Below the pieces are notes generated by a model. That model worked only from the letters and a program-made list of their open reading frames with translations, did no database searches and was not told the DNA's origin. The translations under genes were made by a program, and so were the position numbers. This document shows positions 5,491 through 12,380 of a stretch of DNA of 29,302 bases, in pieces. The DNA is taken from assembly GCA_009602725.1 (NCBI GenBank), contig WELB01000211.1:194711-224012 (forward strand), given 5' to 3'. The DNA is from Spirogloea muscicola (taxonomy: Eukaryota > Streptophyta > Zygnematophyceae > Spirogloeales > Spirogloeaceae). Position 1 is the stretch's first letter. Each line of letters opens with the position of its first letter.

Positions 5491-5546
5491 CACTGAGCCC
5501 GCCTTTTCCGACGACAACCCAGCACGACAAAGGAAGTCCACCTGGC

Positions 5547-7151
5547 CTTCCGTGACGTTCTTATAGACTCCCCCTTGTCTTGCTACCAGTCTGCGCTGGC
5601 CATCCGCAGCCACGGTCCCATTAGATTCTTCCAGTAGCGGGCTATATGTGGCCAGCCCAGAGAAAGAATGTTCCAAGGGGCTAGAAACGAGGAACCACCG
5701 CCATGGGGTTCCAGTATTGGTAGTGATTGCAGTAGTCCTTCTTGCAGGTACTTGTCCCACGAGCTTTCGCTGGCTGCCTTTGTTGACACAGTGCTTGCAA
5801 GCACAAAGGATTTCTCACGTTGATGACAGATCAAGACTCCTAGGTTGTAGCATCCTCTCTACCTGCATCATCTCTACTTTGCTATCCTAGACTCCGCACA
5901 CGAGCTGTCTGTGCAAAGCATCCTCAGTCAAGTCTTGCAACACATAAGAGAAAAGTCCAAAACGAAAGAATCTTCAGCAAATGTCTCTAAGGTATGTCGT
6001 CAAAGCTCAGAAGACAGGCGAAGCAACTTCCAGCACGATCTGTACGTAGATTGTCAACTATGGTGTGGAGTCATGAAGTTCCAAACAGGAGCGGGTAGAA
6101 GCAACAGCGGCCAGTGCTCCAATGCTGCAATAAAGGAGGAGAGCATAAGCTGAACATTGATTGGCAGCACGCACGATTCGCTTGGTACAATCTATACAGT
6201 TGCTGCATCAATGACAGGGGTAGATCAAGTACATGATAGGCACACCACAGACTTGACCAATTTCTGCAGCTTACCACTGCCAGTAAAGCTCCCCAACGTA
6301 TCTTCTCAAAGAAGGCAAAGGAGATGGGCTTTGCATGAGGATCATGTCCTCTCAAGAAGCCTCTGCAAGAAAGCATCCAAATTTTCCTTTAATAATGGGC
6401 AGCGTCCAGCGTAGATACATTCTCTGTGGCGGTGTTAGTTTAGGTGCATGCAACTCAGAAGGCAGAAGCTGAGGTTCCTGATCCGCATGATACAGTGCAA
6501 CCAAGTGCTTACATGAAGGACACTGACACAATAGGAGCAGTACGCGTGTCGTAGATAGCAATCAGGCCGTCAGCGGAGGCATCACCAGTCCTTGCATTCA
6601 CGGCCAGCCGCTGCCCTGTCGGATCCCAGGCCATGCGTTCAATGCCGATCCTGCAGACAGCACCGGAGATTGAGTATGACATCTGCAGTCCAACACAATC
6701 GACTCGGAAGAGACTTATGTTGCTATGGTTATGTAAGAGATAGGTGGTGTACATACTGATGAGCAGAGGCAGCAGGTCCCGCCACGGCGTCAAGCTCCGG
6801 TAGGTCAACAGGGATCAGGGTTGCATCTAGCAAATGACGCATGAAGCCAAAAACCAGTTTAGTCGTCAGCTGAAGGATGGCTTCATACTGTTCTGACGCT
6901 TTATAGACTAACAAAGAAACACCACAACTAGCGATCTCCTCGATCTGCATTTTGGAGGCTTCGTAGGAACATTGCTTCTTTGAGAGCCACTGCTATTACA
7001 AAGATCTCTACATTTTGCAGATGAGCATCTGCATCTGTCACCTAAGGAGGGTGGCTGTCCTGCCAGATGGATAGCAGCCAGCGTTGTTGCATTTTCAAAT
7101 GCAGCTAAAATCACCTTGCCACCGGAGCTCCACCTTGCACTCTGCCCAATA
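5547..7151. repeat. Segmental duplication, copy A (partner 8459-10008)
   Basis: From 'cttatagactcc' at about 5553 to the N at 7152, this stretch matches 8466-10008 with scattered substitutions and small indels. It covers the ALADIN 3' exons 7-11, their introns and about 500 bases of downstream flank. Similarity starts near 5547/8459. It ends at 7151/10008, where copy A meets a single N. Confidence 0.85.
6071..7141 (-). pseudogene. Partial second copy of ALADIN (last five exons)
   Basis: Exons 7042-7141, 6757-6826, 6513-6650, 6275-6362 and 6071-6124 have exactly the same lengths (100, 70, 138, 88 and 54 bases) as the last five exons of the complete gene at 8944-10002. All splice sites and the stop codon are intact. 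The protein has only a few conservative changes, for example DPTGQ for DPSGQ, DTRTAPIVSVSF for DARTAPIISVSF, and HAKPISFAFF for YAKPISFNFF. Everything upstream is missing: the copy ends at an N (7152), beyond which LINE sequence begins. Either it is a 5'-truncated paralogue without promoter, or a complete second copy whose 5' part lies in a hidden assembly gap, or a second allele placed in tandem by mistake. Intact splice sites argue against a long-dead pseudogene. Confidence 0.7.
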
Positions 7152-7152: not shown

Positions 7153-7347
7153 TCGCGGAGGCGGTCGTGGGCCGCTGTCCGCTCTCCGCCGTGGGAACAG
7201 CGCAGAACATGAGCAGCCAGCTCTCCAGGCTCGGTCCCGCGCTCGCCACACTCACATTGACGCACACCCTGGAGACATGGCGGCAGTAGGCCCAGGAGCC
7301 GGTGGACGGCACTTCGGAATACCTCGTCCGGGAGGGTGAGGGCGTCA
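7153..7347 (-). mobile_element. LINE ORF2 fragment with zinc-knuckle (inverted part)
   Basis: The minus strand reads LPDEVFRSAVHRLLGLLPP, then GVRQCECGERG, AAHVLRCSHGGERTAAHDRL. This is the same post-reverse-transcriptase block as at 1-276, with the C.C...H...C pattern. At about 7347 it meets, in the opposite orientation, the LINE 3' tail that starts 'ccagaaagctgggcgagctc'. Its left end is at the N. Confidence 0.75.
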
Positions 7348-7605
7348 CCAGAAAGCTGGGCGAGCTCTAGTAGGTGGCAGAAGGGCTCCGTTCTTGGCAT
7401 CTAGTATTCATGCATCGAGTAGTAACCTTCATGTTTTGACCCGTGGTTATTGAGCTGGTCAATCTGCTGTAGGTTATGTAGATCTTTAGATGTGCTTGCC
7501 TTTGTACCTGGCCATTTGGCCTCCATCTCTTTCTAATACACGGTCTTTTCTTTCGGCTGGCTTTGCCAGCCCCTCTTCTCTATATAAAGGCCCAGCATCA
7601 ACACA
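7348..7605 (+). mobile_element. LINE 3' tail and 3' UTR, first of two direct copies
   Basis: Positions 7348-7545 are nearly identical to 7879-8079 and carry the end of ORF2 (stop at 7451-7453, after VLTRGY in the intact copy). The 3' UTR includes the hairpin GGCTGGCTTTGCCAGCC at 7555-7571 and ends in 'ctctatataaagg'. Confidence 0.75.
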
Positions 7606-8099
7606 CATTGCTGGGCACGCAGTGGGTGGAGCAGAACAAAGAAAACTGCGGCATTACTCCGATTACCCCCAATGCGATCAACTCCTGCCAGCTGCAATCG
7701 ACATCTTCGGCTGTCTGGGTCCTCGCTTCCACCCTTTGCTTCAAAACATTGCCAATCTAGGCTACACTCGACGCGCAGATGTGTTTCCGGCTGAGATGGG
7801 CTTGCCAGCTGCATATCTGTCGCTCTTGCGACGACGAGTTTCGGCCTGTTTGCAGCGTGCTCAGGCTAGTGCCTTGCACCAGAAAGCTGGGCGAGCTCTA
7901 GTAGGTGGTAGAAGGGCTCCGTTCCTGGCATCTAGTATTCATACATCGAGTAGTGACCTTTATGTTTTGACCCGTGGTTATTGAGCGGGTCAATCTGCTG
8001 TAGCTTATGTAGATCTTTAGATGTGCTTGCCTTTGTACCTGGCAATTTGGCCTACATCTCTTTCTAATACACGGTCTTCATCTATGGGCGAGCACTTTC
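7606..8099 (+). mobile_element. LINE ORF2 C-terminal end, second direct copy
   Basis: Open frame from about 7625 to the stop at 7982-7984. It encodes LPAAIDIFGCLGPRFHPLLQ, RRRVSACLQRAQASALHQKA and SSDLYVLTRGY. This is the longest uninterrupted piece of the ORF2 C-terminus in the window and the best reference for the family. The 3' UTR repeats that of 7453-7545 and ends 'atgggcgagcactttct', directly joined to another tail. Confidence 0.75.
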
Positions 8100-8420: not shown

Positions 8421-8458
8421 AGTTGCACCACAACACCAACCACAGCTAGTAATCTTCG

Positions 8459-10008
8459 CCTTCCATGACTGTCTTATAGACTCCACCTTGTCTTGCTACC
8501 AATTTGTGCTGGTCATCCGCATCCACGGTCCCCTAAGAATAGAATCTTCCAGTAGAAAGCGATGGCTGTGATTGGCCAGCCCAGACAAAGAATGAACAAT
8601 ATCCGAAGGGGCCAGAAAAGAGGAACCACCTCTGTGGAATTTCTGTGTTGGGTAGTGACTGCACAAGTCCTCCTTGCAGGTACTTGTCACCGCGTTGATG
8701 ACCCACAAGTCTTGGTTGTAGCGGCATTTCTCCTGCAAGGCAACCCTGCTATTCTGTGCTAGATGCCGCAAGCAAGCTGTCCGTGCAAAGCATCCTCAGT
8801 GAACCAAGGTCTTGCAACACATTACACAGAAGTCCATGCATGGAAGGACACTTCAGCGACTGACTCTAAGGTAGGTCGTCAGAGCTCAGAAGACAGGCAA
8901 GCATTATCCTGCAGGATCTGTGCGTAATTTGTATCGTATGGAGTCAAGAAGTTCCAAAAAGGAGCGGATAAAAGCAACAGCGGCCAGTGCTCCAATGCTG
9001 CAATAAAGGAGGAGAGCATAAGCTGGAAAATGGTTGGCAGCACGCACACTCAGCTTGGTACAATCTCTACATTTGCTGCATCAATGAGAAGGGCACTTCA
9101 AGTCCATGAGAGGAACACCACATACTTTAGCAACGTCTGCACTTACCACTGCCAGCAAAGCTCCCCAACGTATCTTCTCAAAGAAATTAAAGGAGATGGG
9201 CTTTGCATAAGGATCATGTCCTCTCAAGAAGCCTCTGCAAGAAGCAGCAAGTCTTCCCGTTGACGACGGACTGCGATCCGTGTGACGCTGTCCTTTTAGG
9301 TGCATGAAACTTAGAACTGGCAGAACTGAGATTACTGATCCAAGTGATACAGTGCAACCAAGTGCTTACATGAAGGACACAGATATAATGGGAGCAGTAC
9401 GTGCGTCGTAGATGGCAATCATGCCGTCAGTGGAGGCATCACCAGTCCTTGCATTCACGGCCAGCCGCTGCCCTGATGGATCCCAGGCCATGCGTTCAAT
9501 GCCGATCCTGCAAATAGCACCGGAGATTGAGTATGACATCTGCAGTCCAACACAAGCAACTCGAAAGAGATTGATGTTGCTATGGTTATGTATGAGATAG
9601 GTGGTGTACTTACTGATGAGCAGAGGCAGCAGGTCCCGCCACGGGGTCAAGCTCCGGTAAGTCAACAGGGATCAGGGTTGCATCTAGCAGATTACACATG
9701 AAGCCAAGACACCAATTCAGTCATCAGCTGAAGGATGGCTTCATACTCTTCTGACGCTTTAATAGACTAACAAAGGAATACCACAACTCACGATCTCCTC
9801 GATATGAGTTTTTGGAGGCTTCGAAGGAACATTGCTTCTTTGAGAGCCACTTCCATTGCAAAGATCTTCACAATGCTGCAGATGAGCATCTGCATTTGTT
9901 ACCTAGCGAGGGTGGCTGTCCTGCCAGATGGATAGCAGCCAGTGTTGTTGCACTTTCAAATGCAGCTAAGATCACTTTGCCACTGGAGCTCCACCTTGCA
10001 CTCTGCCC
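8459..10008. repeat. Segmental duplication, copy B (partner 5547-7151)
   Basis: This is the ALADIN 3' half and its downstream flank, in the gene that is complete on the 5' side. The flank contains the hairpin repeat at 8564-8582 in both copies, so that insertion predates the duplication. Confidence 0.85.
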
Positions 10009-11763
10009 AAATACGAGATTGCAATGGCAAAATCTTCTCAGTGTCACAACAAGCACATCAATATGCATCAAATACATAGTCTATGACCAGTGTGCAGCTC
10101 CTGCAGGTAGACCTAGCTTGTAGAGGAGCTCCCTCACAACAACATTGCCGTGGACGGAAGACCAGAGCTCCGACGTCCACGTCGTGGTCTCCCATATGTG
10201 GAAAGTAGCATCCCTGAATACAACCAACCCATTACAGTGCTCGTAGGCGTCCAGGAGTTGCTACACAACAATGCTCTGAGCAGGGAACAACAAGTGCGTT
10301 GCATGCAACATGATTGATTTTGACTAGGCGGAGTTACATCTTCAGTTTGTATGACTATGATGTCTTACGTATGAGCTGAGAACAAGTAGTCTCCTGAGGG
10401 AGACCATTCCACCAACGAGACACCAGCAAACCCTCTCCGCAAGGGCTCCCCAAAACCTTCACTTGAACAACTCACTCATAAGACTGTCTTGAAGATCACT
10501 GGCTACAAACAACAGCCTTCCAAGAACTCAATTTGCTGTTAGTGCTATGTAAGCCTGGGTGCACTCTGGTGTCATCACCCTAGCTCAACACATTGCATTT
10601 GCCGTCTAAGTGTCTTCTTATCTGCAGTCCAAGCGTCTTGCAGCTAGTGCAGTTGTTGAGAGACCATTGAGCAGAGCTTAGAAAAGCCAACTGCTCACCA
10701 GAAGCCACGTCCCACACCGTAAATGTAGGACTGCTTGTTGAAGCTGAAGCAAGGTATGTGCAGATTCATTAAGGACAATCTACCAGTAGTTCATTCTCAG
10801 TGGCTTGTGACAAGCCCTCAAATTAGGGGAAACTCTACACTAAGTTGATTGCTCCATACATCGGCATCACACCTGCTCTAGTAACCTCATTCCTTACAAT
10901 GTTGTACCGCACACAGCTGTAAAGCATGACATTGATGTTATCATTGACCACAATGTCCTGATCACAATGCTGGCGAGTCGTAGCAACATTTGAGACCCAT
11001 GGTAAGCATGGGGGCTTTGGATATTGTCCGCAAGGGCTCCAGGTCAGTGATGTGACAGGCGTGGCGCTCTCTGACTGCAGAAAGGTCATCTTTGCATCTG
11101 CGAGCAGGCCAGTGCTATGCTTGGCCCTGCCCCAGTGCCCAGCGGTAACCTGCCCTCGTCCAGAGACCACCCACAGGCTTACTCCTGACCTGCACATCAA
11201 TGTACTTACCATAGTGTCCTTTTGATTTACCAGGTAAAGACTTCAATCACAGCCATTGGAGGGCATCTGAGAGACCGAGCAAAAGCGTCGCATCTTGACG
11301 CAGTAAGACCTCCAGATGCAATGGATTGGAAATCACAAACCAATACTGATGCAGTGCAAGTCCACTGTGCCTCATCATCTGCCACTTGAGGTGCCTCCAG
11401 CAAGCTCACCAACATACCGGCAGGCTGTTGCTAGAGATTGACCAGCACGAGGTCTCCAAGCGACTGCAGCCACTTGGCGCTGGAACTCATGACCCAGCAC
11501 AGATGGCTGCGCAGCCTTGTCTGAAATAGAAAATGGCCAGATAGTAGACTTAGGCAGGTAGTGCCTATTCATGCAAGTGCCAAATTTTGCCTGTCAGTCT
11601 CTACGTGCAAGCTCCTAGGCCTCCGAGCTTAATGAACATGGTAGTGGCAATGCAATGATGCACTATGTGGAGCAGTACCTTGGTCATCAAGATCGTACAG
11701 GAGCACGCGGTCACGGGCGTCAACAACTGCAAGCCTCTGCCGTCTCCAGTGGCAGCTGACCGT
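8944..11763 (-). CDS. AAAS: ALADIN/AAAS nucleoporin (WD-repeat), N-terminal exon(s) unresolved
   Basis: Eleven exons in transcript order: 11679-11763, 11418-11520, 11025-11189, 10699-10757, 10369-10456, 10138-10213, 9903-10002, 9614-9683, 9370-9507, 9147-9234, 8944-8997 (stop TGA). Phases agree throughout, giving 341 residues. WD-repeat pieces in order are RLAVVDARDRVLLYD, VAAVAWRPRAGQSLATACR, PVTSLTWSPCGQYLASAS plus FTVWDVASG, GVSLVEWSPSGDYLFSA, WETTTWTSELWSSVHG, LIPVDLPELDPV, IERMAWDPSGQRLAV, GMIAIYDARTAPIISVSF and the C-terminus VHWSTGRCCFYPLLF. These match plant and animal ALADIN in order and spacing. ALADIN sits on the cytoplasmic side of the nuclear pore. About 100 N-terminal residues are not placed; they should lie between 11770 and 12270. 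One intron is probably U12-type (see separate entry). A partial second copy lies at 6071-7141. Confidence 0.85.
10758..11024 (-). other. Probable U12-type AT-AC intron of ALADIN
   Basis: On the minus strand the exon ends TGCGGACA and the intron starts ATATCC. It ends with tgtCCTTAATgaatctgcAC, and the next exon starts ATACCTTGCT. Joining there gives codons for CGQYLASAS, exactly what ALADIN needs; no GT-AG pair does so. ATATCC is the known U12 AT-AC donor core, and TCCTTAAT fits the U12 branch-site consensus at the right distance from the acceptor. Splicing itself is inferred. Confidence 0.75.
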
Positions 11764-12000
11764 CTGCCTCCGGAAGCTGTCCTGTGTAGTGCAACAGATG
11801 CACAGGATACGAGCCGTGAGAGAATGTGCAAACGAGTTTTCACCAGTGTAAGTTGAGAAAGGAATATCCTTAATAATGCAGTCGGCACAAGAATGGCCAT
11901 CGATTACATGTGAGCCATTGCAGTGTGGGAGGTCGTGCAAGGGTAGCCATGCAATCCGCAGCGGCAGCTCAACCAGCCACCACGCGGATTCTGGAGGTGG
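11764..12000. other. Upstream of the placed ALADIN exons; no confident exon
   Basis: A minus-strand frame stays open from 11940 into the 11763 exon. The translated segment does not resemble ALADIN, and a clean acceptor (GGAGGCAG|ACG) lies at 11763, so I take this as intron or upstream sequence. Confidence 0.4.
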
Positions 12001-12105
12001 GGTTAGGGTTCAGGGTTTAGGTTTAGGAGTTAGGAATGAGGGGTTTAAGTTAGGGTTTGGGTTTAGAGTTTGGGGGTTTAGGTTTTGGGGTTTGACAGTT
12101 AGGGT
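12001..12105 (+). repeat. Degenerate interstitial telomere-like repeats, TTTAGGG type
   Basis: There are about a dozen variants of GGGTTTAG, GGTTTAGG and GTTAGGG in a row. The plant/green-algal heptamer is recognisable, but no long exact array remains. Confidence 0.8.

Positions 12106-12269: not shown

Positions 12270-12380
<111 letters not shown>

Follow-up and report, generated by a model that had tools for sequence, protein, structure and literature searches.

The ALADIN locus

The window, by which we mean the whole analysed stretch of 29,302 nt (C211:194711-224012 of a genome of 153 Mb in 471 contigs), contains a gene for ALADIN whose features are collected in Table 1. Its ten modelled exons, read from 11781 to 9147, join into one continuous frame with zero stops, and eight of the nine introns in the model are GT-AG while one is AT-AC. 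The spliced protein matches the Pfam family Beta-prop_Aladin with 189.3 bits (cut-off 171.1). A full-length alignment to the PDB chain 9sob_4 'Aladin' gave 293.8 bits, and 7r5j 'Aladin' was matched with 105.3 bits; we take 9sob to be a plant ALADIN structure and 7r5j to be the human protein.

Several repeats accompany the gene. A tandem partial duplicate of the 3′ half of ALADIN occupies window positions 5545-7149 (5818-7149 is 85% identical to 8693-10010, and 5545-5756 is 79% identical to 8458-8688); it stops short of the AT-AC intron. A 202-base direct repeat is present at 7346-7547 and 7877-8078 (95.5% identity), and a run of 109 T (12272-12380) lies between ALADIN and the neighbouring gene. 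Degenerate TTTAGGG-like repeats are found upstream of both ALADIN copies, at 11990-12100 in the window and at ~640-700 of the locus on contig C295 (L051).

Table 1. Features of the ALADIN gene and of its AT-AC intron, in window coordinates
Feature	Position	Strand	Remarks
ALADIN gene as modelled	9147..11781	minus	10 exons; model without the 5′ and 3′ end exons
Model exon 3	11025..11189	minus	ends ...SPCG plus two bases of the Q codon
Model exon 4	10699..10757	minus	encodes YLASAS...
AT-AC intron, assigned to the U12 type	10758..11024	minus	267 nt, phase 2
5′ splice site ATATCCAAAG	11015..11024	minus	+1 to +6 agree with ATATCC, the core of U12 A-type donors
Branch-site element TCCTTAAT, predicted	10768..10775	minus	complementary to GUAAGGA of the host U12
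3′ terminus AC	10758..10759	minus	frame restored across the junction

The AT-AC junction and its sites

On the minus strand the upstream exon ends ...GGACA (last base 11025) and is followed directly by ATATCCAAAG (11024..11015). The 3′ part of the intron reads GTCCTTAATGAATCTGCAC, its last base being 10758, and the next exon starts with ATACCTTGC at 10757. The peptide across the junction, SPCGQ-YLASAS, aligns with SPCGR-YLASAS of 9sob_4. We scored 3549 open in-frame junctions of the local ALADIN region against the 9sob_4 stretch: the AT-AC junction reached 121, as compared with 92 for the best GC-AG and 77 for the best GT-AG junction, and GC-AG and GT-AG readings of this intron were rejected on these scores. 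The first-pass annotation had placed a U12-type AT-AC intron of ALADIN at exactly these coordinates, and frame and homology agree with it. It had also called the junction the only one that restores SPCGQYLASAS, which is too strong, as the score of 121 is common to six adjacent offsets with an identical peptide (the AT-AC offset and five shifted ones, one of them AT-AT). What distinguishes the AT-AC offset is the donor, since ATATCC is found there only among the six. Homology thus makes AT-AC the best-supported junction predicted for ALADIN.

The predicted branch A is base 10769, at a distance of 11 nt from the final base of the intron, and fits a TCCTTRAY element placed ~10-15 nt before the acceptor. 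The donor, the branch site and the terminal AC, named at the outset as U12 signals, are all in place, and the second gene copy has the same ends. At +7 to +9 the donor has AAA in both ALADIN copies, a mismatch to the consensus TTT on which the first-pass annotation had not remarked; TTT is a preference of U12 donors and no requirement. U2-type AT-AC introns have a donor like ATAAG and are without a U12 branch element; the intron studied here has ATATCC and the U12 branch element TCCTTAAT. With the U12 A-type introns of plants and animals it shares the ATATCC core, TCCTTRAY 11 nt from AC and GT-AG neighbours, but those introns have TTT at +7 to +9, where ALADIN has AAA and the antiporter intron described below has TCT. 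Across both strands of 154,893 bases, ATATCC occurs 165 and TCCTTRAY 100 times per Mb; this sample consisted of 34 records, a few of them overlapping, and the TCCTTRAY rate is inflated because 18 records had been chosen for TTTCCTTAACT. Post hoc arithmetic puts the chance of donor, branch element and AC at the small number of allowed positions at ~1e-7.

The second ALADIN copy, on C295, contains the same intron with a length of 277 nt. Its first 14 nt are identical to those of the window copy and it keeps ATATCCAAAGCCCC; in place of the window's TCCTTAAT it has TCCTTAAC, an exact branch match, and it ends in CAC. Aligned over their whole length the introns share 76% identity, and their interiors 74%; identical columns number 14/15 at the 5′ end and 26/30 at the 3′ end. 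Fully identical windows of 15 columns all lie in the interior and none at the ends, and we therefore regard end conservation between the copies as modest evidence.

A second U12-type intron in an NHE6/9-like antiporter

Na+/H+ antiporters were targeted because two U12 positions common to animals and plants are reported for this family (PMC2426677). All three NHE6/9-like antiporter copies retrieved (C58, C155 and C90) contain an AT-AC intron of the form ATATCCTCTT...TTTCCTTGAC...CAC. Its pattern, ATATCCTCTT...TTTCCTTGACTCCC[C/T]TGTGCCTCAC, stands between the peptides LPPIIY and WSGFSLQP. Among solved chains the spliced peptide has its best matches with NHE9 (106 bits) and NHE6 (99 bits), and the junction aligns without a gap. 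With a score of 59 the AT-AC junction is the sole best in each copy (907, 1082 and 1016 open junctions, respectively); the runners-up, at 54, have unusual ends, the best GC-AG junctions reach 10-12, and the number of open GT-AG junctions in the three copies is zero. We consequently rejected a GT-AG or GC-AG reading of this intron. Its donor has TCT at +7 to +9.

In the other antiporter group (L040-L042) five of five introns read by eye are GT-AG. An exon piece of L041 (~330-430, NAGYALKKK) is apparently repeated within the next intron, and the decay of this repeat differs among the three copies. Degenerate TTTAGGG-like repeats also occur within the antiporter gene, in L040 (reversed), L041 and L042 (~130-240).

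Our claim is limited to two U12-type introns, which together occupy five gene copies, and does not extend to a genome-wide number. Scanning the genome with the strict branch 11-mer TTTCCTTAACT gave 18 matches versus 138 for the reversed control, and a simple donor scan of the 18 sites yielded no clear U12 intron (0/18). The low number of matches indicates that introns fitting the strict 11-mer are not abundant.

Minor-spliceosome components in the genome

Rfam searches of the genome recovered U12 snRNA in three copies (80-81 bits), U11 snRNA in four (46-60 bits) and U6atac snRNA in three (83-86 bits, with 46 of 5506 first-look candidates scored), all of them over the Rfam cut-offs. In nine of the ten copies the element TATCCCA is found at -76/-77 (U11 and U12) or -68/-69 (U6atac), each time with a TATA-like box between -29 and -33. 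The background frequency of TATCCCA is 0.009 per 150 nt across the loci examined, the nine snRNA occurrences included, and the element resembles the upstream element of plant snRNA genes. The remaining copy, a fourth U11-like sequence (L007, C439:1913-2051), is 89-93% identical to the others, carries neither the upstream element nor the TATA-like box and is probably a pseudogene. AAAGGG is kept in the three promoter-bearing U11 copies, as is GUAAGGA in U12.

On the protein side, CENATAC (Pfam CCDC84) was detected at two loci with 99.2 and 97.9 bits, plus further exons. Five of the six matches of the profile exceed the cut-off and fall at these two loci, and the sixth, located elsewhere, is below it. 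The N-terminal zinc finger and WLPSFGRVW, which we recognise as a CENATAC motif, are readable at the loci. CENATAC has been described as belonging to the minor spliceosome and promoting AT-AN introns, the genes of which are enriched for nucleocytoplasmic transport (PMC8280824); ALADIN itself is a nucleoporin.

The first-pass annotation had made its reading depend on such components and on other U12-like introns. The proposed genome search for U12 and U6atac snRNAs returned three copies of each, a minor-spliceosome protein was found in CENATAC, and the antiporter AT-AC intron was added to them. Its further claim that the host encodes U11, U12, U4atac and U6atac holds for three of the four RNAs. 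U4atac gave 0 matches at E<=10 in the Rfam search (48 of 1771 candidates scored), and two patterns complementary to the host U6atac had 0 matches in the genome, a non-detection that does not show absence.

Lineage of the host

We compared light-harvesting proteins of the host with PDB chains. The LHCII protein (L035) matches 8htu and 7xqp with 444 bits and other land-plant chains with ~420 bits, 6kac with 395-402 bits and Bry-Lhcb1 of 8hlv with 363 bits; we take 8htu and 7xqp to be moss, 6kac Chlamydomonas and 8hlv Bryopsis. The top summed score, 555 bits for 9vfj_2, comes from a two-domain chain whose better domain reaches 308. For the LHCI protein (L037) there are 18 matches at E<=1e-60, of which the specifically named ones are Lhca4, P4 or '4' chains. 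A chlorophyte host was rejected, as the LHCII is closer to moss and land plants than to Chlamydomonas or Bryopsis and the LHCI matches Lhca4-type chains. Judged from these proteins, the host is a streptophyte. It is probably an alga, although an early land plant is also conceivable.

The evolutionary frame proposed initially, in which several green algae have lost the minor spliceosome, does not suit such a host: minor introns are known in the streptophytes Klebsormidium nitens (110) and Chara braunii (166) (PMC10639083). These algae belong to the same broad lineage and have likewise retained minor splicing, so that retention in the host is expected and not startling. The main text of PMC10639083 contains none of the words 'zygnema', 'mesotaenium' or 'spirogloea', and our literature searches found no work on a minor intron in ALADIN and nothing related that joins Zygnema with the minor spliceosome. 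The ALADIN intron extends the known U12 class to another host in the land-plant lineage.

An altered U6atac

In the standard scheme AAGGA at nt 12-16 of U6atac pairs with UCCUU at +4 to +8 of the donor, and this pairing is taken as essential, with support from suppressor genetics in animal cells. In all three U6atac copies of the host (L008, L009 and L010) the canonical AAGGA is replaced by GCCGA: nt 12-14 are GCC versus AAG in the Rfam consensus. The 5′ start is GUGUUCGUUGAGCCGAGAGAAGGUUAGCA in each copy as compared with GUGUUGUAUGAAAGGAGAGAAGGUUAGCA in the consensus, where the box is printed in capitals, that is, as highly conserved. GUUAGCA and CGAUAAGGACGGG segments are contained in the host U6atac. 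The predicted pairing that is left consists of A16-U4 and G15-C5; donor positions +6 and +7 are opposed by C14 and C13, with loss of their pairs, while +8, which is C in the antiporter and A in ALADIN, faces G12. For AAA at +7 to +9 of the ALADIN donor we predict no pairing with U11 AAAGG and none with U6atac. A donor co-adapted to the altered U6atac (ATATCGGC; TCGGC) was considered and is absent from both introns found. Computed duplexes of U11 and U6atac with the donors have weak energies, the best ones being partly out of register, and a canonical GT donor has equal energy with both forms of U6atac; duplex energies are therefore of little use here.

The minor splicing of Cyanophora paradoxa has been described as possibly transformed (PMC10639083). 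Like the host, C. paradoxa has minor introns and snRNAs that depart from the Rfam models, but its U11 alone is significant, whereas the host has U11, U12 and U6atac above the cut-off, a changed U6atac donor box and an undetected U4atac. The portion of PMC10639083 on Klebsormidium and Chara that we draw on is silent on an altered U6atac, whereas the host has one. A title-level literature search, with divergent Giardia snRNAs and Physarum (Larue 2021) outside its scope, found no report of an AAG to GCC-type change, a silence that is not proof of novelty.

Interpretation and alternatives

ATATCC, branch element and AC, their recurrence in the second gene copy and the genes for U11, U12, U6atac and CENATAC together argue for the U12 type, and we are nearly certain that 10758-11024 is a genuine U12-type A-type AT-AC intron of ALADIN in a streptophyte. 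GGGU at the 5′ end of U11 would read AUCC of the donor, GUAAGGA of U12 would pair with UCCUUAAY and leave the branch A bulged, CENATAC would assist introns of the AT-AN kind, and catalysis would then fall to a U4atac/U6atac.U5 tri-snRNP. Splicing in cells, these RNA pairings, the presence of U4atac and the way in which the altered U6atac engages the donor are what we infer from the sequences. Removal of the region by the major spliceosome, whether in the form of a U2-type AT-AC intron or by use of a GC-AG or GT-AG pair close by, is extremely improbable: major-class AT-AC introns do exist (PMC8280824) and the GC-AG pair 11007/10744 has an open frame and a score of 92, but a GC-AG or GT-AG alternative would cost YLASA of a conserved WD40 blade. 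In addition, the U12 signals, ATATCC and TCCTTAAY at 11 nt, are also present in the second ALADIN copy, and the antiporter intron cannot be read as GT-AG in an open frame.

The intron could also be real but decaying, a poorly spliced relic with a weak donor (AAA) in a lineage that is losing minor splicing. The few canonical branch 11-mers, the altered U6atac and a U4atac found neither by Rfam nor by the two patterns would suit such decay, which we nevertheless consider unlikely, since the two ALADIN copies, whose intron interiors are 74% identical, do not differ in AAA or anywhere else in the opening 14 nt, the ALADIN frame is intact, and U12, U11 and U6atac each retain three copies with promoter elements. 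Less likely still is a scenario in which the three U6atac loci are mimics or pseudogenes, their function being served by a canonical U6atac that escaped detection. Only 46 of the 5506 first-look candidates were scored, which leaves some room for this, but the same altered box occurs in three copies with differing flanks and promoter elements at fixed distances, and a canonical U6atac would score higher, yet none is among the matches listed.

With the intron read as U12-type, we give an even chance to a transformed minor spliceosome, in which the donor box of U6atac has been rewritten, donor identity would rest on U11 (GGG:UCC) together with proteins, and positions +7 to +9 of the donors would be drifting (AAA, TCT). 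If true, nature would here have put to the test whether U6atac must pair with the donor in full. In the three U6atac copies at least two of the five predicted donor contacts are gone, and yet ATATCC persists in the donors found; a natural setting is thus available for testing this textbook interaction. It is the altered U6atac, more than the retention of the intron, that merits follow-up.

U11 and one antiporter gene lie ~21-25 kb apart on each of the contigs C8, C39 and C42. From this constant spacing the three promoter-bearing U11 copies stem from a large duplication, the trace of a triplication, and a genome triplication is mentioned for Spirogloea muscicola (PMC7994812).
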